Positions 13,239 to 56,000 of a stretch of 64,000 bases of DNA are shown here, piece by piece. Numbering within the stretch: position 1 is the stretch's first letter; the number at the start of each line of letters is the position of its first letter. A program made the translations under genes and the position numbers. The stretch covers positions 186,001 to 250,000 of the forward strand of contig SAXG01000016.1 of assembly GCA_012932865.1 (NCBI GenBank), written 5' to 3'. The DNA is from Amylostereum areolatum (taxonomy: Eukaryota; Basidiomycota; Agaricomycetes; Russulales; Stereaceae). Under the pieces are notes generated by a model. That model was given only the letters and a program-made list of their open reading frames with translations, did not search any database and was not told the DNA's origin.

Positions 13239-16200
13239 ATGGACGACGCCAAGGTCGTCCCAGTTTCCGATGACGCGACAAAAGAGTGGGCCCCTGACGA
13301 CATACTCGACCCCGGAGTGCCCTTTCGCGTTCTCATTCTGGGTCGAGCCAACGCCGGAAAGACGACTGTCCTCGAAAGGCTCTGTAAAGGCTCTGTCGAA
13401 GACGCTAGGATATACCGGTACGGTGAACTGGTTTGTATGCATCTGCCGTGAGCTCGATCTATGTCTCATCGTGAACGTTAGACCGATCAGCGGATGATGA
13501 AGGGAGAGCAAGGGGTATGTCAACCCACACATCTCCCTCTCCATGTTTGATAGACTGAAGCTAATCTGTCTAGCGCGGAGAGCATGAAATCGACGATGAA
13601 ATTGTTTTCCCGTCTTTGCCTGGATTCGTCTTTCATGATTCACGCGGCATTGAAGCGGGCTCGGTCAATGAGTTGACTATGGTTCAGGAGTTCGTAAGTT
13701 ATCGCTCCGAGTCGGTGAAGGACAAGAAAAGTCAACTGCACGCCATCTGGTAAGTCTGCGCTACTCTTGCGTCTGGAAGTTGATCCGATTCGGTCGTGCA
13801 CCGGAATCGAACAGGATATGCCTACCAATCGACACCGACAGGCCGCTCTTACCACCCGAGAAGGACCTATGTAAACTCAAATCGAACGGAAGTCAGTCCC
13901 AACATCTCAGTCACGGCGTGCGATGCACTGATGTATAGCATACTTGGAGTTCCTATCATCGCGATCTTCACGAAAGCTGATGCCAGACGCACGAAAATTG
14001 CTGTGGGACTCAAAGATGGTTCTGGACCTCAGGCGGTGAAGAAGGCCAAAGTGGAAGCAGCAAAACATGTCGACCGGTTGATACAAGATCTCCGCGAGCA
14101 GCTGCCCCCAGCCGGGGAAAATCGCGACTACGAAACGGCGCCAGGTAAGTTTACGGGTCTCGCACCGCGGAGCACATCCCCATGCACATGATTGCGCAGA
14201 TCTACAAAAAAAAGACGACAAGAAGTGCGAGGAATTTTGCCAGAAGCTGATATCGAAGACGCAGGCCCTCTTACCCTCGTCGAAGATGCAAGCGCTGCTA
14301 GTAACAGTCTGGAGAAATAACATTTCAGAACGCAGTCTCTGGGTTTTCCGCAGGCGAGTTTCTACGTCATGACGCAGTCTCGACGCTAACCGTCACGTCA
14401 CGCGTCACGTTTCAAACAGTTTGTTAAGGGAATTTTGTCTGTTCTCTTCTTCACTGTGTCTAGACTGCTCAGCACTCACGTACTAGCATCCAGACCGCGG
14501 GAGTCTTACTGAAAAAACGACTGTCGCACGAATTGTGGCTCTCTTTCTCTCAGTACGTCTTTTTAGTACGAACAGGTGTTAATGGAATGGGTCTGATATG
14601 CATGATCGAAATGAAGATCTCGTACCACGAAGTCAGTGGACTCACACATGTATCTCCACGCGGGGCTGATCACAAGTATCGTCAAACGCGGGGAAATCTA
14701 GTATGTAAGCAAGTTTCCGCAAACCTCGCAGTATGAATCAGGAGCTGACGACAGCGACATCGAACACCCGGACATTCAGGATGTGGATGTGAGTCTCCCC
14801 ATGACCATCGCGGGGGTCAAGTGCTGACGACGGCAACATCCGACGCGCGGCCGTCCAGACTGTGAGTTGGCCGAGACCTTTGCGGGGGTCGAGCGCTGAC
14901 GACAACGACATCGCACGCGCGGCCGTCCAGCTTGTGAGTCTGCCCGTGGCCTTTGCGGGGTCGAACACTGACGACAACGACATCGCACGTGCGGCCGTCC
15001 AGCATGTGAGTCTGCCCGTGGTCTTTGCGGGGATCGAGCACTGACGACAACGACATCGCACCCGCGGCCGTCCAGCTCGTGAGTCTGCCCGTGGCCTTTG
15101 CGGGGTCGAGCGCTGACGACAACGACATCGCACCCGCGGCCGTCCAGCTTGTGAGTCTGCCCGTGGCCTTTGCGGGGGTCGAACGCTGACGACAACGACA
15201 TCGCACGCGCGGCCGTCCAGCTTGTGAGTCTGCCCGTGGCATTTGCGGGGTCGAACACTGACGACAACGACATCGCACGTGCGGCCGTCCAGCATGTGAG
15301 TCTGCCCGTGGTCTTTGCGGGGATCGAACACTGACGACAACGACATCGCACGTGCGGCCGTCCAGCATGTGAGTCTGCCCGTGGCCATCGCGGGGATCGA
15401 GCACTGACGACAACGACATCGCACGTGCGGCCGTCCAGCATGTGAGTCTGCCCGTGGCCATCGCGGGGATCGAGCACTGACGACAACGACATCGCACGTG
15501 CGGCCGTCCAGCGAGTGAGTCTGCCCGTGGTCTTTGCGGGGTCGAGCACTGACGACAACGACATCGCACCCGCGGCCGTCCAGCGAGTGAGTCTGCCCGT
15601 GGCCTTTGCGGGGTCGAGCACTGACGACAACGACATCGCACGCGCGGCCGTCTAGGATGTGAGTCTGCCCGTGGCCTTTGCGGGGTCGAGCACTGACGAC
15701 AACGACATCGCACGCGCGGCCGTCTAGGCTGTGAGTCTGCCCGTGGCCTTTGCGGGGGTCGAGCGCTGATGACACTGACATCGCACGCGCGGCCGTCCAG
15801 CTCGTGAGTTTGCCCGTGGCCTTTGCGGGGGTCGAGCGCTGACGACAATGACATCGCACGCGCGGCCGTCTAGGATGTGAGTCTGCCCGTGGCCTTTGCG
15901 GGATCGAGCGCTGACGACAACGACATCGCACGCGCGGCCGTCTAGGATGTGAGTCTGCCCGTGGCCTTTGCGGGGGTCGAGCGCTGACGACAACGACATC
16001 GCACGCGCGGCCGTCTAGGATGTGAGTCTGCCCGTGGCCTTTGCGGGGTCGAGCACTGACGACAACGACATCGCACGCGCGGCCGTCTAGGCTGTGAGTC
16101 TGCCCGTGGCCTTTGCGGGGGTCGAGCGCTGACGACACTGACATCGCACGCGCGGCCGTCCAGCTCGTGAGTTTGCCCGTGGCCTTTGCGGGATCGAGCG

Positions 16201-19111
16201 CTGACGACACTGACATCGCACGCGCGGCCGTCCAGCTCGTGAGTTTGCCCGTGGCCTTTGCGGGATCGAGCGCTGACGACAACGACATCGCACGCGCGGC
16301 CGTCTAGGATGTGAGTCTGCCCGTGGCCTTTGCGGGGGTCGAGCGCTGACGACAACGACATCGCACCCGCGGCCGTCCAGCTCGTGAGTCTGCCCGTGGC
16401 CTTTGCGGGGTCGAACACTGACGACAACGACATCGCACGTGCGGCCGTCCAGCATGTGAGTCTGCCCGTGGTCTTTGCGGGGGTCGAGCGCTGACGACAA
16501 CGACATCGCACGCGCGGCCGTCTAGGATGTGAGTCTGCCCGTGGCCTTTGCGGGGTCGAGCACTGACGACAACGACATCGCACGCGCGGCCGTCTAGGCT
16601 GTGAGTCTGCCCGTGGCCTTTGCGGGGGTCGAGCGCTGACGACACTGACATCGCACGCGCGGCCGTCCAGCTCGTGAGTTTGCCCGTGGCCTTTGCGGGA
16701 TCGAGCGCTGACGACACTGACATCGCACGCGCGGCCGTCCAGCTCGTGAGTTTGCCCGTGGCCTTTGCGGGATCGAGCGCTGACGACAACGACATCGCAC
16801 GCGCGGCCGTCTAGGATGTGAGTCTGCCCGTGGTCTTTGCGGGGGTCGAGCGCTGACGACAACGACATCGCACCTGCGGCCGTCTAGGATGTGAGTCTGC
16901 CCGTGGCCTTTGCGGGGATCGAGCACTGACGACAACGACATCGCACGCGCGGCCGTCTAGGCTGTGAGTCTGCCCGTGGCCTTTGCGGGGGTCGAGCGCT
17001 GACGACAACGACATCGCACCTGCGGCCGTCTAGGATGTGAGTCTGCCCGTGGCCTTTGCGGGGATCGAGCACTGACGACACTGACATCGCACGCGCGGCC
17101 GTCCAGCTCGTGAGTTTGCCCGTGGCCTTTGCGGGATCGAGCGCTGACGACACTGACATCGCACGCGCGGCCGTCCAGCTCGTGAGTTTGCCCGTGGCCT
17201 TTGCGGGATCGAGCGCTGACGACAACGACATCGCACGCGCGGCCGTCTAGGATGTGAGTCTGCCCGTGGTCTTTGCGGGGGTCGAGCGCTGACGACAACG
17301 ACATCGCACCTGCGGCCGTCTAGGATGTGAGTCTGCCCGTGGCCTTTGCGGGGATCGAGCACTGACGACAACGACATCGCACGCGCGGCCGTCTAGGCTG
17401 TGAGTCTGCCCGTGGCCTTTGCGGGGATCGAGCGCTGACGACACCGACATTGCACCCGCGGCCGTCCAGCGAGTGAGTCTGCCCGTGGCCTTTGCGGGGG
17501 TCGAGCGCTGACGACAACGACATCGCACCCGCGGCCGTCCAGCATGTGAGTTTGCCCGTGGCCTTTGCGGGGGTCGAGCGCTGACGACACTGACATCGCA
17601 CCCGCGGCCGTCTAGGCAGTGAGTCTGCTCGAGGTCTTTGCGGGGGTCGAGCGCTGACGACACCGACATCGCACGCGCGGCCGTCCAGTATGTGAGTCTG
17701 CTCGAGGTCTTTGCGGGGGTCGAGCGCTGACGCCACCGACATCGCACGCGCGGCCGTCCAGGATGTGAGTCTGCCCGTGGCCTTTGCGGGATCGAGCGCT
17801 GACGACAACGACATCGCACGCGCGGCCGTCCAGTATGTGAGTCTGCTCGAGGTCTTTGCGGGGGTCGAGCGCTGACGACACCGACATCGCACGCGCGGCC
17901 GTCCAGGATGTGAGTCTGCCCGTGGCCTTTGCGGGATCGAGCGCTGACGACAACGACATCGCATGCGCGGCCGTTCAGCATGTGAGTCTGCCCGTGGCCT
18001 TTGCGGGGGTCGAGCGCTGACGACAACGACATCGCATGCGCGGACGTTCAGCATGTGAGTCTGCCCGTGGCCATCGCGGTGGTCGAGCACTGACGACAAC
18101 GACATCGCACGCGCGGCCGTCCAGCATGTGAGTCTGCCCGTGGCCTTTGCGGGGGTCGAGCACTGACGACAACGACATCGCACGCGCGGCCGTCTAGGCA
18201 GTGAGTTTGCCCGTGGCCTTTGCGGGGTCGAGCACTGACGACACCGACATCGTACGCGCGGCCGTCCAGGCCGTGAGTCTTCCCGTGGCCTTTGCGGGGT
18301 TGAGCACTGACGACAGCGACATCGCACGCGCGGCCGTCCAGAAAGTGGGTCTGCGCTACACAGCATCCATGGTGTAGAACTGATCGTACTGTCGCATGGT
18401 TGGCGTTTAGCTAGTACGTGGTGAAAATGCCTCATATCGCCGTGTTTATTCTGATGGATATGCTCCTGCGACAGGCTGTAAGTTTTACCGTTCCTCACCG
18501 GCTGACCGTTCGCCTACTTTTGTTACCCTCGCGTGGAACACGAAATCCCGGTTTTCCCGTTTTCACTGATCATTGCGGTTTAGGATTTCCTTGTCGAGCA
18601 CTGTGCACCCGTTTTTGATCCCACTGACTCGGTGAGTTTTTCGTCGCTGTATGGCCGTGTGCTTTGTTCTAACGGAAAACATTTCCCTCAGTCCGAGTTG
18701 TCTCGCGAGAGGGCCGTGATCTTCGCTGCTTGTATAACCTCTCCGTCGTCGCCCTTCTTCTAATCGTCTCATTTTATGATCGCATTCTAGTCCTTGTCGT
18801 CATTCAACGCAAAGTCCTCGTTGCAATAAAGATGGGGAAAAGGTCAGCCTACGAAACGGAGCTGAAGAAGGTTGTGCGCCATTCTGCCGTCAAGAATATA
18901 CTATCCTCGCTCGAGCAGCAGATCATGGAGAGTTATGGCCCCACAGGGAAAGACGGAAACTTCGACAAATTCAAAGCGGACGATGTCAATCCCATGGCAG
19001 AGAAGTTGAAGAAGATTGTTGAGGACAATCTGCTTGACGAGTTAAATGGTAAGTTGAACCAAGCAAGCAACTTCTCCTCAAATTGATGCTCATTTAGCAG
19101 CAGAGGAATAG
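13239..19111 (+). CDS. P-loop GTPase, family B, copy 1 (B1), with single-codon micro-exon array
   Basis: The G-domain exons are confident: 13239-13430, 13482-13514, 13574-13749, 13815-13891, 13950-14144, 14200-14357 (277 codons). They carry G1 GRANAGKT (residues 35-42), G3 HDSRGIEAGS, SQLHAIW and G4 FTKAD, and end at SERSLWVFRRR. Linker exons (about 14420-14631) are uncertain; the last ends in codons MKISYHE before a GTCAGT donor. Then come micro-exons TAT (14702-14704), a 9-nt exon (14780-14788), 49 triplets ending AAA (18342-18344), CTA (18411-18413) and GCT (18475-18477). The tail exons are 18584-18631, 18692-18731, 18791-19048 and 19098-19111; they encode a charged helical module (YETELKKVV, IVEDNLLDELN) shared with B2 and B3. 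One possible linker reading meets TGA at 14510-14512. The function of the family is unknown to me; the array is described separately. Confidence 0.78.
14702..18477 (+). repeat. 72-73 bp tandem array of intron plus 3-nt exon units (B1)
   Basis: Each unit starts GTGAGT (a consensus 5' splice site), has GCTGACGAC or ACTGACGAC (branch site CTGAC) about 30 bases before the end, and ends GGCCGTCCAG or GGCCGTCTAG, a 3' splice site. Exactly three bases then precede the next GTGAGT. I count 49 such triplets from ACT at 14859 to AAA at 18342: GAT 13, CAT 9, CTC 9, GCT 5, CTT 3, CGA 3, GCA 2, TAT 2, and ACT, GCC, AAA once each. None is a stop codon. The intron part is 69-70 nt and nearly invariant; the triplet varies. 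Blocks of 6-7 units recur almost identically (16113, 16620, 17056), so the array has expanded recently. Array ends are inside the B1 transcript, in phase 0. Confidence 0.93.
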
Positions 19112-22482: not shown

Positions 22483-24276
22483 ATGGCGACTCCTGTCGAA
22501 AACATCTTCGCTGCGTTCGACGTTCTCAGCGGACGTGTAAGCACCTCCGTTCAAACACAAGTTGGAGACGCGGCACGCCTTGAGCCCGTTCGCACCGACA
22601 TATTGCGGCTTTCGGGTGCCGTTGACCAGGTATGTCAGGGAAGGCCTGTCTGGTGGTCGTGTTACTGATATTTCTCAAGCATGCGGCGTCTTTCGAGAGC
22701 GAAGAGTTGGCCTGGATTCGCGAGAACTTGACGGCCATGCTCGAAGATGTTGACCAAGCGGCGTCGGCATCTGCTGATCCTCCTGACTCCGTGCCGCATG
22801 TCGTTCGCCGTGTCCATACCGGGCGCCCTGGTCGCCCGCGCGTCGAGATCGACCCCAACTTCCTCGAGTTTGGCCTGGACGTCAGTACGGGCACACGCGT
22901 GGCGGCACTTCTCAACGTGAACCCTCGCACCGTTCGTCGTCGGGCTCTGGAAGCCGGACTCGCGCAGCCTGGCGCACCCGTGCGACTGGAGGTGACTGAT
23001 GCTGACGGACACACCACGGTGCACCACACATCGTCCTCCGCACCAGTGTCTACAATGGCCGACGAGCAGCTGGATGCGTTGATTGCGTCTGCTCTGGAGA
23101 CGTTTCCCAACATGGGTCGATCCATGCTGGACGGCCACCTCCGCGCACAAGGGCATCGCGTTCCCCGCGATCGCGTCCAAGCATCATACCTTCGCGTCCA
23201 TGGAGCTCCTGGCGTGTTCTCGGGGCGCCGCATCGAACGTCGCAGCTACAAGGTTGCGGGCCCCAACTCTCTGGCCCATCACGACGGTCAGCATGGTACG
23301 TGCCTCCTTCGCATCAATATAGGTGACCACTTACCCTCTTCGACAGGCCTCATCCGATACAAGATCGTCATACACTGCTTCATCGACGGATATTCGCGCT
23401 ACGTGACAGGAATCCGTGCCAGCAACAATAGCAGGGCGGAGACCGTGCTGCAGCTCTTCATGGAGGTCGTCGAGAACCATGGAGTGCCGAGCCGCGTTCG
23501 GGGAGACCATGGGACGGAGAACGTTGCGGTTGCCTTGTGGATGGAGCAGAATAAGGGTGTCGGGCGCGGGTCGTACATATGGGGTCGGCAAGTTCGCTCT
23601 CAATTGTAATGAATTGCTACGGTCTAAATCAATATGTAGAAGTGTACATAACACTCGGATCGAACGGCTCTGGTACGATGTAACCAAGGACTTCGGCCGC
23701 AAATGGAAGACGTTCTTCCTCGCCCTCGAGCTCCATCACGGGTTAAACCCCTCTCTACCGGCGCATATCTGGCTGTTGCATTTTCTCTTCCTGGACTGCA
23801 TCAATGAGGATGCCACGGAGTGGGCGGAGGTATGGAACGCGCACCGCATGGAGCTTCCTGACGAGTCGCGGAAAAGCCCTCGCGAGCTTTTCCTGTTTGG
23901 AATGGTGCGCGAGGGCGCGCGGGGGGTGCCCGACGCGGGTGAGCCAGTTGAGGACGGCCTTGAGGACGGCCTTGACGAGTACGGCGTGGACTGGGAGGCA
24001 ATGGAGGACAACGCGGTGATGGAACACCTTCTGGAGCATAACCCGCAAGAGGAGATCGCCCCCAACCCTTTTTCACCTAATCCTACGCCAGATCGCCTCT
24101 CCCACGTCCCTTGCGATGCACCTGATTCTCCGCTAACCCCTCAGCAGATCACTTCATTGACTGCCTTCCTTGACGCACGCGCCGACCGCACCTCCAGAAA
24201 CATGCACGCCCGTCGGACGGTTTGGGATGAGGCTTTGTGGTTCTGCGAGCAGTTGTTTTCAGGGGATAATGAGTAG
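22483..24276 (+). CDS. DDE integrase core-domain protein of a DNA transposon
   Basis: Exons 22483-22629, 22680-23295, 23347-23587, 23640-24276 (546 aa, in frame). After an N-terminal helical part and HTGRPGRPRVEID there is a helix-turn-helix-like segment (VAALLNVNPRTVRRRALEAG). The catalytic core follows: FIDGYSRYVTGIRASN holds the first Asp, RGDHGTEN the second, and SVHNTRIERLWYDVT the Glu. This layout is the retroviral-type integrase core seen in many basidiomycete proteins, often from domesticated or mobile DNA elements. The frame closes only if intron 3 uses a GC donor (GCAAGT at 23588), which joins YIWGR to SVHNTRIERL exactly. All three acidic residues are present, so the protein may be active; element ends were not found. 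Confidence 0.83.
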
Positions 24277-43484: not shown

Positions 43485-46229
43485 ATGAACAAAAAAAATG
43501 TCCCACCCCTTGCTCCCCTCTCCGAAAGGACCGAAGACGAACAACGTAGCCTAGCGAAGGAGGGGGCCCATGCCGAACCAGAGTCGACGCTCGAAGACAT
43601 AGTGGACGTCGGGGTGCCCTTTCGCGTTCTCATTCTCGGTCGAGCCAACGCCGGAAAGACGACCATCCTTGAGAGGCTCTGCAAAAGCTCTGTCAACGAA
43701 GCCAAGGTATACAGGAATGGCGAACTGGTGGGTTTGTCTCTGTCCTTAGCTCGCTCTATGCCTCACGTTCATACCGCCAGACCGATCAGCAGATGAAGAA
43801 GGGCGAGCGTGGGGTATGTACCTACTGCATCTCTCCCTACCTGTGTCATGGGCCGACGGTCATGCATGCAGCGCGGAGAACATGAGATCGAGGATGAAAT
43901 TCTTTTCCCGTCGTTGGCTGGGTTTGTCTTTCATGACTCGCGCGGCCTCGAGGCGGGTTCAGTGACGGAGGTGGCCACAATTGAGAACTTTGTGAAGAGG
44001 CGCTCAGAAGCGGTGCAGAATAAGGACGAGCAACTGCATGCGATTTGGTAAGCCTGCGCTTCTCGTTTCTGAAGAAGTCGATCTAACTCGTTCACCGGAC
44101 AGGGTATGCCTCCCACTTGACAACGCCCGACCGCTTATGGACGCAGAGGAAAAGCTCTGCAGGATAAATTCAAGCGGCGGTCAGTATCCTTCCTCTGAGC
44201 TTGTAATTTACTTCACCGCGACTGCAGTTCCTGTCGTTGCGATCTTCACGAAACGCGACGCGAGATACAGCGTAGACTACAACATGGCACGCCAGAGCAC
44301 CACGTCACGGGAGGAGGCCAAAGCAGCCGCTGAAAAGGGGGTCGAAAAGTGGATCGAAGACATCCGGGATAGGCTGAAAGGGGACCCCAGTCCATCCGGA
44401 TACATTACGGCTCCGGGTATATGCTTTTCTACTGCCTGCAGAACAGGTGCTTATACCAGCGCAGATCTACAGGAATACAGCTATGACGGCGAGACGTTCT
44501 GCAAAGGGCTGATATCAAAGACGCAGGATCTCCTACCCTCGTCGAAGATGAAAGCGCTACTCGTCACCGTCTGGAGAAACAATATTTCAGAGCGCAGTCT
44601 CTGGGTTTTCCGTAGGCGAGTTTACACATGTCCTGATGTCAGTCTCGAGGCCAATCCCCCCAATTAGTTTACTAGACAGAGTTTGTTCGTCCCATACCTT
44701 TTCAGACGCCTTGCTCAGCCCTCCTATTCCAGTATTTAGGCAGATCTCGTACAGGAACAACAACAAGGAAGACTATAGCAATGATTGTGCTTATCTTTCT
44801 TCGGGTACGTATTTGAAGAGCGGGGGTTCGATGACATTGCTCTGACGTGCAGGATCACAATGAAGCCCGACATCAATGTGGTCAGTCGACTGGACGTTAT
44901 ATATCAGAGGCATCGTATGATTTCATGTAAAGGAAACCGCGGGGATGGACATAGGATGTGAGTCTTTCCAGGATATCTAAAGCGATTGGGTACTAATCAT
45001 GAAACTATTGCTATACATCCGTCCAGCCAGAGGGTGAGTCCGCGGTAGTTGCATCACCGAGAGTGACAACGACGGTTCGCGCGCGCATCCAGTCTGATCC
45101 GCCGGTGAACTTGCATCGAGAGCTGACGACGACGGTTTCGCACGCGCGGACGTCCAGGACGTGAGTCCGCCGGTGAACCTTGCATCAAGAGCTGAACGAC
45201 GCTTGCGCGCGCGGGACATCCACGTGAGTCCGGCTTTGCGTTGCAGCGACGCTCGGACATACCAGACGCGTGAGTCCGCGCAACTGACCTCTTGCACATC
45301 AACGAGAGCTGACAACGACGGCTTCGCACCGCTGCGGACGTCCAGAGGAGTGGTCCGGCGCGTGTGGAACTTGCATCAACCGAGAGCTGACGATGAAGAC
45401 GGCTTCGCCCGCGCTGGGCGCGTCCGGACGTGAGTCCGCCGGTGAACCTTGCATCAACCGAGAGCTGACGATGACGGCTTCGCGCGCGCGGGCGTCCAGA
45501 TCGTGAGTCCGCCGGTGAACCTTGCATCAAACGAGAGCTGACAACGACGGCTTCGCACGCGCGGACGTCCAGATCGTGAGTCTGTGACGCTCGACTGTGT
45601 TGGTGGTGGAGAACTGATTGTACCGCGACATGTTGGTCTTTAGCGGGTACGTATTTGCAGTGCCATACATCGCTCACTAATAATTGCGGCTTAGGGTGTC
45701 CTTCTTGAGCAATCCGCAACTATCTTCGATCCCAATGACTCGGCGAGTTCATAGTCACTGTATGCCCGTGTACGTTGTTTTAACCGAAAACATTTTTTTC
45801 AGTCCGAGCTGTCTCGCGACAGGGCCGTGGTTTTGGTTGCATGTGCGCCAGATTATAAGCCATCATCTCCCTCCTTTTGTTGACTTGATTCTCGCATTTC
45901 AGTACTTGTTATAATCCAACGCAAAGTCATCATCGCAATAAACAAAAAAGGAGACAAATCACTGGCATCCTACGAAACGGAGCTGAAGAAGGTCGTGGGC
46001 CATCCCGCTGTCAAGGCCACTCTATCTTCGCTGGAGCGGCAGATCGCGGAGAATTTTGGTTCGAATGGGAAAGACGGAAACTTCGACGACTTCAAAGAGG
46101 ACGATATCAAACTCATGGCAAAGAAGTTGACGGAGATTGTTGAGGACAATCTGCTTGACGAGTCGGATGGTGAGTTCTACCAACCAAGCGACTTCTCAAA
46201 TTCATGCTAATCTAGCCGCAGCGGAATAA
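43485..46229 (+). pseudogene. P-loop GTPase, family B, copy 2 (B2), G domain intact, linker and array decayed
   Basis: G-domain exons 43485-43727, 43781-43813, 43872-44047, 44103-44179, 44228-44416, 44465-44619 are open (291 codons) with GRANAGKT, FVFHDSRGLEAGS, EQLHAIW, FTKRD and SERSLWVFRRR. Linker exons 44668-44680, 44706-44804 and 44853-44880 follow. The last is one base shorter than its B3 counterpart and meets a TGA, although its end (codons MKPDINV before GTCAGT) is back in the conserved register. Tail exons 45695-45742, 45803-45842, 45903-46169, 46216-46229 are in frame; the first tail intron has a GC donor (GCGAGT at 45743) where B1 has GTGAGT. Between linker and tail is a short, degenerate micro-exon array. 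A single sequencing indel could make it appear broken, so the pseudogene call is tentative. Confidence 0.65.
44955..45646 (+). repeat. degenerate intron/micro-exon array of B2
   Basis: About nine units of roughly 65-75 bp with the core GTGAGTCCGCCGGTGAACCT and AGAGCTGACGA. Some junctions keep the three-base spacing: TAG-GAT-GTGAGT (44955), CAG-AGG-GTGAGT (near 45032), CAG-GAC-GTGAGT (near 45160), two CAG-ATC-GTGAGT (near 45500 and 45573) and TAG-CGG-GTACGT (45644). Others are damaged: donor changed to GATCCG or GTGGTC, acceptor CAC or CCG, spacing of four. This contrasts with the clean arrays of B1 and B3. Confidence 0.8.
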
Positions 46230-53098: not shown

Positions 53099-56000
53099 AT
53101 GAAAAACAAGATCCCACCCCCTGGTTCACCCTCCTCAATGACCGAGGATGAGCAGTATAAAATGGCAGGAGGCCGAGGACACCAATGAGTTGCCGTCTGA
53201 ATACACACTGGCGAACCCTGGAGTACGCTTCCGCGTTCTCATCCTCAGTAGAGCCAACCCCGGGAAGACTGACTATCCTTGAGAGGCTCTGTGAAAGCAC
53301 TATCGAGCAAGCTGAGGTGTACCGAAACGGCTCGCCGGTGTGTTTACATCTGCCTTCGATGAGCTCGTTTTTATTTAATACTTATGCCTTATCCGTCATC
53401 ACTGCGACAGACCAGCAGGCGAATGCAGAAGGGCGAGCGCGGGGTAAGCTAAGGCAACCCCATTTCCCTGAGTGCTTCACGAGCTTGACATACTTATATA
53501 GCATGGAGAGCATGACATAGAGGATGAAACGATATTCCCGTCTTTACCCGGGTTTGTCTTTCACGACTCAGCGCGGGATCGAGTCGGGCTCAGAGAACGA
53601 GGTGGTGACAATCGAGGCGTTTGTTAAGCGTCGTTCGCAGTCGGTGAAGAACAAGAGCGAGCAACTACACGCGATTTGGTAAGCCTGCACTTCTTTTTTT
53701 CACTGAAAGTCAGGTCTCATTCGTAGCGTACCACCATCTAACAGGATATGTCTGCCACTTGACGACGACAGACCGCTCATACAAGCAGGAGGAAAACCTC
53801 TTCAGAATCGACTCCGGCGACGGTCAGTAGTCTTAGTCTTGGCTGGGCGGTTCACTGAAAGAACGATCATCGTAGTTCCTGTCATCGTGATCTTCACGAA
53901 ATGCGATGCGAGATACACCAAATGTTTGAATGAGGAACTTGGCAACAGTGCAGGCCGCTCCAAACGTGAAATGATGAAAAAGGCGAAAGCGGCAGCTGAA
54001 GAGCGAGTCAAAAAATGGATAAACGACATCCGTGACAGGTTGTATCGAGTTGTTTCCCGTCTATCTTCCTACGAGGACCTGAAGGCTCCAGGTATGTGCA
54101 TGTCCCTTGCCTCACAACAACAACTGCTCATTTTGGTGCAGATCTACAGGAACCTAGCAAGGAGAGCGAGTCATTCTGCCAAAATTTGATATCACGTACG
54201 CAGAACCTCCTCCCGTCGTCGAAGATGCAAGCAGCTACTCGTCGCAGTATGGAGAAACAACATCTCAGAGCGCACTGTCTGGGTTTTTCACAGGCGAGTT
54301 TCTACGCCATACTCTGAAGTAGTCTCGCGGCTAACCCTTTCAACTAGTTTATTGGGTCAAATTCGTGCGTCCTCTGCCCCTCTAAACCTGCTAGGATCAG
54401 CTCTCAAATGCCGGCATCTAGACCACTCATCTCCGGTGAAAAAGATTACAAAGGAGGCGGTGGCAGAACATGCGACGGCCTATCTTCCGGTGTGTATTTG
54501 AAGAGCAGGTATCTAAGTCATTGCGCTGATGTACAGGCTGTGAAATGAAGGCTCTAGGCCTTTATAGAGTCAGTCAACTTACACGTATAACTAAAATCAG
54601 CACTGATTATCTGTAACACGAACGCACCGAATATCCAGTATGTGAGTGTGCCAGTGACTCTCTCGGCCATCGAGAGCTGATCACGGCGGTTTCGTATACC
54701 TGGACTTTCAGGCTGTAAGTGTACGCCAGAGACTCGACCGTCAAGAGCTGATGACTCCGAGTTCGTACGCGCGGATGTCCAGGAAGTGAGTGTACCAATG
54801 ACTCTCTCGACCGTCGTAAGCTGATCGCGGCGGTTTTGTACGCACGGCAATCCAGTATGTGAGTGTGCTAGTGACTCTCTCGGCCGTCGAAAGCTGATCA
54901 CGACGGTTCTATACGCGCGGACATCCAGCAAGTGAGTGTGCCATTGACCACATAGGCCGTCATAACGTCACACGCTGATCGCGTGATCGCGATCGTTTTG
55001 TACGCGCGTACATCTAGCTCGTGAGTGTGCCAGTGACTCTCGGCCGTTGAGAGCTGATCACGACCGTTCCGTACGCGCGAACATCCAGGATGTGAGTGTA
55101 CCATTGACCTCATAGGCCGTCATAACGTCACACGCTGATCGCGACGGTTTTGTACGCGCGTACATCCAGCAAGTGAGTGTGCCAGTGACTCTTGGCCGTC
55201 GAGAGCTGATCGTGGTGGTTTTATACGCGTGGATATCCAGCAAGTGAGTGGGCAATTGACCTCATATGGCCGTCGAAAGCTGATCACGACGGTTTTATAT
55301 GCGCGGACATCCAGCAAGTGAGCGTGCCATTGACTTCATGGGCCGTCATAGGCTGATCACGACGGTTTTGTACGCGCGGACATCCAGCAAGTGAGTGTGT
55401 CATTGGTCTCATAGGCCGTCAAGAGCTGATCACAACGGTTTCATACGCGTGGACATCCAGCAAGTGAGTGTGCCATTGACCTCATATGGCCATCGAGAGC
55501 TGATCACGATGGCTTCTTACACCCGGATTTCCAGTATGTGAGTGTGCTATTGACCTCATATGCCGTCGAGAGCGAATCAGGACGGTTTCGTACGCGCGGA
55601 CATCCAGCCTGTGAGTGTGCCAGTGACCCTCAGTCGTCGAGAGCTGATCACGATGCCATCGCACGTGCGGACATCCAGTATTTGAATAATGTGAGTGCGT
55701 TAGTGGCTCTCGGCTGTCGAGAGCTGATCATGGATGTTCCGCACCCACGGATAATGATACGTAGGAGGCAAGCCAGCCTTTGACTATGTCGACGGTAGAG
55801 AGCTGATTGCGTATTCACATGCGGATCCCCAGGTGGTATGTAGTGTCCGTGTCTCATGCGTTGCTATCTTTACTTTGACGACCGCATCCCTTCAACAGGC
55901 TGTAAGTTTAGTGGCGACCGTTCCTTCGTTTGTTTTGACTTGCGATTCGCTTAGGCTTTACTCCAGCATTGCGCATCAAAGCTCGATCCGAGTAACGCGG

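Follow-up and report, generated by a model that had tools for sequence, protein, structure and literature searches.

The closest described counterpart of the genes considered here is the NACHT-ANK (nank) family of the truffle Tuber melanosporum, for which "dozens of 3 bp mini-exons" and alternative splicing were reported (2012 study, as cited in PMC4986451, PMC3689799, PMC9815663 and PMC10197012). In the repeat regions of HNWD-type NLRs of Podospora, as described in PMC4986451, highly similar repeats are reshuffled by concerted evolution, contain hypervariable positions, and vary in number. Schistosome micro-exon genes, in the account given by PMC10526429, comprise 10 to 20 short exons (3–81 bp) with introns of 100 to almost 5000 bp, and encode secreted proteins with isoform diversity. 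Splicing of a single 3-nt microexon is described for homothorax of Drosophila (PMC7392893), and fungal introner-like elements are described as multiple similar introns inserted in different genes (PMC4457414).

Here we analyse a window of 64,000 nt of the Amylostereum areolatum genome (C66:186001–250000), with genome-wide scans covering the 57.1-Mb assembly of 182 contigs. The window contains a predicted GTPase gene, B1, in which a tandem array of single-codon exons follows the GTPase part. Like the nank genes in the papers citing them, B1 has tens to dozens of 3-bp exons and belongs to an expanded fungal gene family; the sequence-only reading from which we started had stated that no array of this kind was described, which overlooked the codon-sized microexon arrays reported for T. 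melanosporum. On the other hand, the nank genes as cited are ascomycete NLR genes with NACHT and ankyrin domains, whereas here the gene is a basidiomycete GTPase matched by neither: among the five Pfam families listed at E up to 1 for spliced B1, there is no NACHT or ankyrin family. Because of this the Amylostereum genes are placed outside the nank family. They work like the Tuber system without being members of it, and differ in phylum, in protein family and, as far as the citing passages describe the nank genes, by tandemly repeated introns, while the kind of array as such was already known. In nank genes, alternative splicing of microexons is reported to diversify the protein, whereas in the Amylostereum array it would be a possibility offered by the sequence.

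Many very short exons are also a feature of schistosome micro-exon genes as described, but in B1 the parsed introns are about 70 nt (61–106 nt), the exons are uniformly 3 nt, and the product starts with a GTPase domain. The homothorax case demonstrates that splicing of a 3-nt exon is feasible, although there it is one exon and here an array. Unlike the described introner-like elements, the Amylostereum copies are arranged in tandem in one gene family. The matches listed from a search of the open-access literature included no such array from a basidiomycete, and none for a GTPase gene. Provided that it is spliced as we read it, the B1 array would add a second case of one-codon exons in arrays, from a different fungal phylum and with an unrelated protein, and would suggest that genomes with short introns can build protein diversity residue by residue.

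Structure of the B1 gene

The predicted spliced coding sequence of B1 (plus strand) comprises 66 exons and 65 introns, and forms an open frame of 478 aa, with nine ordinary exons (13239–14631) followed by 53 tiny exons and four tail exons (18584–19111). The ordinary exons were placed by hand, the annotated Amylostereum chailletii (Russulales) protein P0001 serving as a guide, and GAG is the acceptor of one of them. The first eight (13239–14552) encode the GTPase part with the motif GRANAGKT; it is 99% identical to P0001, and the N-terminal part of the spliced product matches Pfam MMR_HSR1 (E 1.4e-4) at 22.3 bits, just above the cut-off of 21.9. The homology to Agaricomycete P-loop GTPases (MMR_HSR1-like) extends over the G domain, for which a search yielded 397 homologous proteins at E <= 1e-5, the named ones among the 120 listed being all fungal.

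One B1 intron is of the GC-AG type (donor GCGAGT at 14354), in agreement with annotated P0001. A GC-AG intron with the same donor follows the GTPase-domain exon in B1–B4; B5 has GTATGT at that place.

The last ordinary exon before the array (14617–14631, phase 0) had been read as MKISYHE. It probably encodes ISYHE only, with AAG as the acceptor, and the junction FLP|ISYHE is also present in annotated P0001. The first tail exon, DFLVEHCAPVFDPTDS (18584–18631, phase 0), lies exactly where it had been proposed; the other tail exons (18692–19111) run to the stop codon, and copies of the tail are found in seven places of the genome. Thus placed, both flanks of the array are in phase 0, as is the array itself. 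If the array is left out as a whole, the coding sequence is open too, consistent with the earlier statement that skipping keeps the frame. As this shortest transcript is also in frame, the frame alone cannot discriminate between the array and one big intron.

In the P0001 model, ISYHE runs into the last array unit and then stops, and the array peptide is absent from the annotated A. chailletii models; hence, more such genes may be hidden. P0001 reads through the last array units, and when it was compared there by eye with the window at 18319–18415, four residues differed within an intron, and no change was seen around the AAA triplet.

In four homologues from other fungi (P0058, P0076, P0072, P0043), the GTPase domain is followed by a low-complexity stretch rich in Y/H/E, E/R or D. 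Two of these, P0058 and P0076, with Y/H/E- or E/R-rich stretches, are located on short jgi contigs and look transcript-derived. For the tail, an alignment with Mycena-type proteins looked plausible, but the profile comparison gave a probability of 5.8 and we do not claim this homology; a database search with the tail only returned 98 candidates, none of them at E <= 1.

The array of tiny exons

The B1 array (14702–18477, plus strand) was delineated in three ways. Tandem Repeats Finder reports a 73-bp unit present in 49.2 copies at 14787–18354. A motif scan for an acceptor (YAG), three bases and a donor (at most one mismatch to GTRAGT) yields 52 sites at 14699–18472, spaced by 64–73 nt, except for one step of 157 nt that contains a 9-nt exon (14780–14788). 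Finally, a splice parse, in which exon length was free (1–60 nt) and the weights came from general knowledge and were not trained on the array, resolves the region into 54 introns and 53 exons. Of these exons, 52 are 3 nt long and the remaining one is the 9-nt exon; together they encode 55 residues, YDVDTLHLLLHHHRRDALDDDALLDLHDALLDDADLLDDARHAYDYDHHHAAKLA. The tandem arrangement of three-base units in the sequence-only reading thus stands, while its count of 49 units becomes 53 small exons and its peptide of about 50 residues becomes slightly longer. The signals it described are also present: the donor is GTGAGT in 49 of the 54 introns, the acceptor is CAG (n = 33) or TAG (n = 21), and 50 of 52 introns have a branch-type site 32 nt ahead of their end.

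The controls are far lower. The antisense parse gives 3-nt exons in 1 of 40 cases, and the mean over 20 shuffles is 0.55; hence, the B1 pattern is above chance and the array is real.

Paralogous arrays

The sequence-only reading dealt with one array, and the main evidence for single-codon exons inside a GTPase gene is that the same organisation recurs in several paralogues. By the free-length parse, 3-nt exons account for 52/53 of the exons in B1, 17/18 in B3, 26/29 in B4 and 25/26 in B5, while the antisense strand of the last three yields 0/10, 0/15 and 0/16, respectively, and the shuffle means of the four arrays are 0.20–0.65. Exon lengths are multiples of three in 53/53, 18/18, 29/29 and 25/26 cases in B1, B3, B4 and B5, respectively, compared to 11/40, 4/10, 3/15 and 7/16 on the antisense strand. 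With two ties set by hand, all 126 exons of these four arrays are multiples of three, and none of the 122 triplets is a stop codon; this count leaves out B2, which is degenerate, and B6, whose start motif was not found on contig C86. About 3.9 stops would be expected over 113 units and none is seen, which is only suggestive of stop avoidance; units within one array are related, and hence such counts are not independent. The first triplet is TAT in all four arrays, and exon number varies from 53 in B1 to 29 in B4, 26 in B5 and 18 in B3.

In B3, the last ordinary exon encodes ALGLYR (54551–54568, plus strand) and is followed by an array at 54639–55901 with 18 tiny exons, of which 17 have 3 nt and the other has 12 nt; both the parse and the motif scan find it. 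The B3 GTPase exons (53142–54250) are apparently frame-shifted relative to A. chailletii P0004, which reflects either a pseudogene or an assembly error. In B2, the last ordinary exon, PDINV (44866–44880, plus strand; PDVNV in P0003), precedes a degenerate array (44955–45646, plus strand; parse and motif scan) with 3-nt exons in 5 of the 10 parsed. Some of its units have lost acceptors or have exons of odd length, which reflects either decay of the array or consensus errors in the assembly; a single assembly is the source here, and the indels in B2 and B3 are apparent ones.

A sixth paralogue, B6, seems to be in two pieces on C66, with the 5' part and the array at positions 307834–310840 (plus strand) and a matching tail at 270296–270547 on the opposite strand (minus). 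On C86 (1–13328), a B6-like array and tail lie on one strand, about 300 bases apart, and the difference is due to either a haplotype inversion or misassembly. An 893-bp block of C86 differs from the B6 array on C66 by five substitutions and no gaps, a small sample; judged by eye from the printed contexts, none of the five falls on a triplet or a splice-site GT/AG.

Proposed mechanism

We consider it probable that in the B1 family a linker is encoded one codon per exon, and that this linker diversifies codon by codon with unit-wise splicing. B1 and its paralogues would be P-loop GTPase genes, in which such a linker joins the GTPase domain to a tail common to the paralogues. Each repeat unit of about 70 nt would constitute a spliceosomal intron, complete with donor, branch site and acceptor, and neighbouring units would leave exactly one in-frame codon between them. 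Sequence evolution in the paralogues strongly supports the predicted single-codon exons in phase 0.

Where introns are short and carry complete signals, recognition is expected to take place across the intron, and in this case exon size need not limit splicing. By such intron definition the spliceosome could remove the introns singly, one residue being added per unit; with 65 introns for 478 residues, B1 tests the reach of this mode of recognition. Tandem duplication of the units, together with recombination via their introns, would multiply and homogenise them, homogenised introns favouring unequal exchange, while the triplets are kept diverse. Since each unit could be gained or lost with no frameshift, linker length and sequence could change at no cost to the frame, and exon skipping may generate further isoforms.

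The architecture, its phase, the retention of splice signals in an array that has diverged, and the hypervariability of triplets in two arrays can be demonstrated at the level of DNA, while splicing unit by unit is what these signals predict. Diversifying selection may be the cause of the diversity, alternative inclusion of exons may add to it, and a role in recognition is suggested by the analogy with fungal NLR repeat regions. Going further, the introns could act as recombination handles, and the codons could be kept diverse by selection or by site-directed mutation, so that the array would be a generator of variable regions at codon resolution, multiplied by skipping, for GTPase-based self/non-self recognition that arose independently of truffle NLRs; this extended version is tentative, and we hold it to be possible but doubtful.

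Variability of triplets and introns

B1 and B4 show clear hypervariability of the triplets; in B3 and B5 it is weak. In B1 (n = 48 units), triplet diversity is 0.571 (pi) versus 0.069 for the introns, and none of the 69 intron columns reaches the triplet mean; likewise, in B4 (n = 23) the values are 0.589 and 0.146, with 0 of 70 columns at the triplet mean. In B3 (n = 13; 0.517 versus 0.233) and B5 (n = 21; 0.706 versus 0.494), the triplet mean is reached or exceeded by 8 and 6 of the 70 columns, respectively. The combination of near-identical repeats and hypervariable positions, evident in B1 and B4 and not clearly so in B3 and B5, resembles the Podospora HNWD regions as described, but there each WD repeat is coding, whereas here the repeat is an intron and the hypervariable part is the single codon in between. 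Near-identical introns beside hypervariable codons also provide an internal control for measuring selection on the codons.

Pairs of units with identical flanks are informative in this respect. Among B4 pairs with identical 70-nt flanks, triplets differ in 24 of 31, by 1.8 of the 3 bases on average; in B1, triplets differ in 8 of 38 pairs with identical flanks and in 26 of 28 at two flank differences. The p-distance between introns of the same array is 0.126 in B1, 0.160 in B4, 0.306 in B3 and 0.487 in B5, compared to 0.282–0.479 between arrays. Thus, introns are homogenised within the array in B1 and B4 only, while in B3 and B5 the distance among introns is about equal to that from the nearest other array, and in the intron tree the arrays are not clean clades. 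Such a pattern is consistent with turnover being recent in B1 and B4 and with units of the other arrays being older.

The excess of codon diversity in B1 and B4 speaks for selection in favour of differing residues, a local mutation process being less likely. There is, however, another possibility, that the units are spliced but not selected: intron-plus-codon units would multiply neutrally within a tolerated spacer, and triplet diversity would result from drift, old diversity and recombination. Added codons are harmless to the frame, the paralogues have arrays of very different length (53, 29, 26 and 18 exons), and the triplets of B3 and B5 exceed the most variable intron columns by little. 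Besides, overall variability at codon positions 1 and 2 is as high as at position 3, with the exception of position 2 in B3, which gives no hint of purifying selection on residues. Nevertheless, a neutral spacer does not explain why triplets in B4 and B1 are four to eight times as variable as the introns, nor the 24 of 31 B4 pairs with unrelated triplets between identical flanks, and the maintenance of all 26 junctions in B5 argues that losing a unit's splicing is costly. We therefore regard unselected multiplication as rather unlikely, and prefer the diversifying linker.

Conservation of splice signals

Array B5 is the most diverged one, with a diversity of 0.546 in intron interiors; among its aligned introns, 24 of 25 have a length other than 70 nt, and there are 42 indel events. 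Still, the parse spans the whole array with introns of 47–83 nt and no leftover units, and all 26 junctions (one was placed by hand) retain an acceptor (YAG or AAG), a 3-nt exon and a donor. In the raw parse, the 27 introns have acceptors CAG (n = 16), TAG (n = 10) and AAG (n = 1), and donors GT (n = 26) and GC (n = 1). The observed indel rate predicts about seven indels in the 12-nt junction cores. The chance of 26 intact GT..AG sets is about 1e-20, an order-of-magnitude value that assumes a star tree, comes from a parse that seeks such motifs, and is slightly generous given the one GC donor.

Between the branch site and the acceptor, the dinucleotide AG is found at 0/1025 positions in B1, 1/318 in B3, 0/525 in B4 and 10/518 in B5 (one B3 and one B5 intron with no branch-type site were dropped), compared to a frequency of 0.038–0.073 in the 5' part of the introns. 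In a unit type that is found twice in B4, the usual acceptor is lost, the parse takes one further upstream, and the resulting exon of 12 nt is in frame.

These observations bear on the possibility that the array is a non-coding minisatellite within one large intron extending from 14631 to 18584, in which the splice-like motif is passive. Intronic minisatellites are known, the coding sequence is open when all units are skipped, and the triplets are missing from the annotated A. chailletii models. A passive repeat, however, leaves unexplained that the interiors of B5 introns diverged while the splice dinucleotides and the 3-nt spacing did not, that AG is excluded ahead of the acceptors, that the 12-nt exons of B4 keep the frame, and that a version of the tandem pattern with four bases is absent from the genome. 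Hence, we consider one large intron to be very improbable compared to splicing of the units.

Distribution in the genome

We searched the assembly for the tandem pattern with k = 3 (donor, 42–72 nt, YAG, 3 nt, donor, 42–72 nt, YAG, 3 nt, donor) and observed 88 matches (64 forward, 24 reverse). All 88 are located either at 200–311 kb of C66 or on C86, a 13.3-kb contig that matches a part of this cluster. The same search yielded no matches for the reversed k = 3 pattern or for the k = 4 version. In 174 kb of C66, we counted sites with YAG positioned k bases before GTRAGT, using the nearest YAG and a preceding donor 45–95 nt away; there are 77 such sites on the plus strand and 24 on the minus strand for k = 3, versus 2 and 4, respectively, for other k up to 24.

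If the units were copies of a mobile intron-generating element accumulated by repeated insertion, near-identical introns in many copies would be accounted for, similarly to the described fungal introner-like elements (PMC4457414). But a 147-bp probe has at least 29 matches, all of them inside the B1 array and none elsewhere among the matches listed, so that dispersed copies in many genes were not encountered, and the tandem pattern is confined to the gene cluster and the short contig matching part of it; the probability of such an origin is minute. A repeat protein encoded on the opposite strand, suggested by frames of 521, 397 and 350 aa that are open across the array, can be practically dismissed, as these minus-strand frames shift from unit to unit because unit lengths mix 72 and 73 nt, overlap in several frames, and are accompanied by conservation of splice signals on the plus strand and by an antisense parse almost devoid of 3-nt exons.

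Downstream of B1, an integrase core domain (PF24764, E 3.6e-30) is situated at 22626–23606 (plus strand) and probably belongs to a transposable element.
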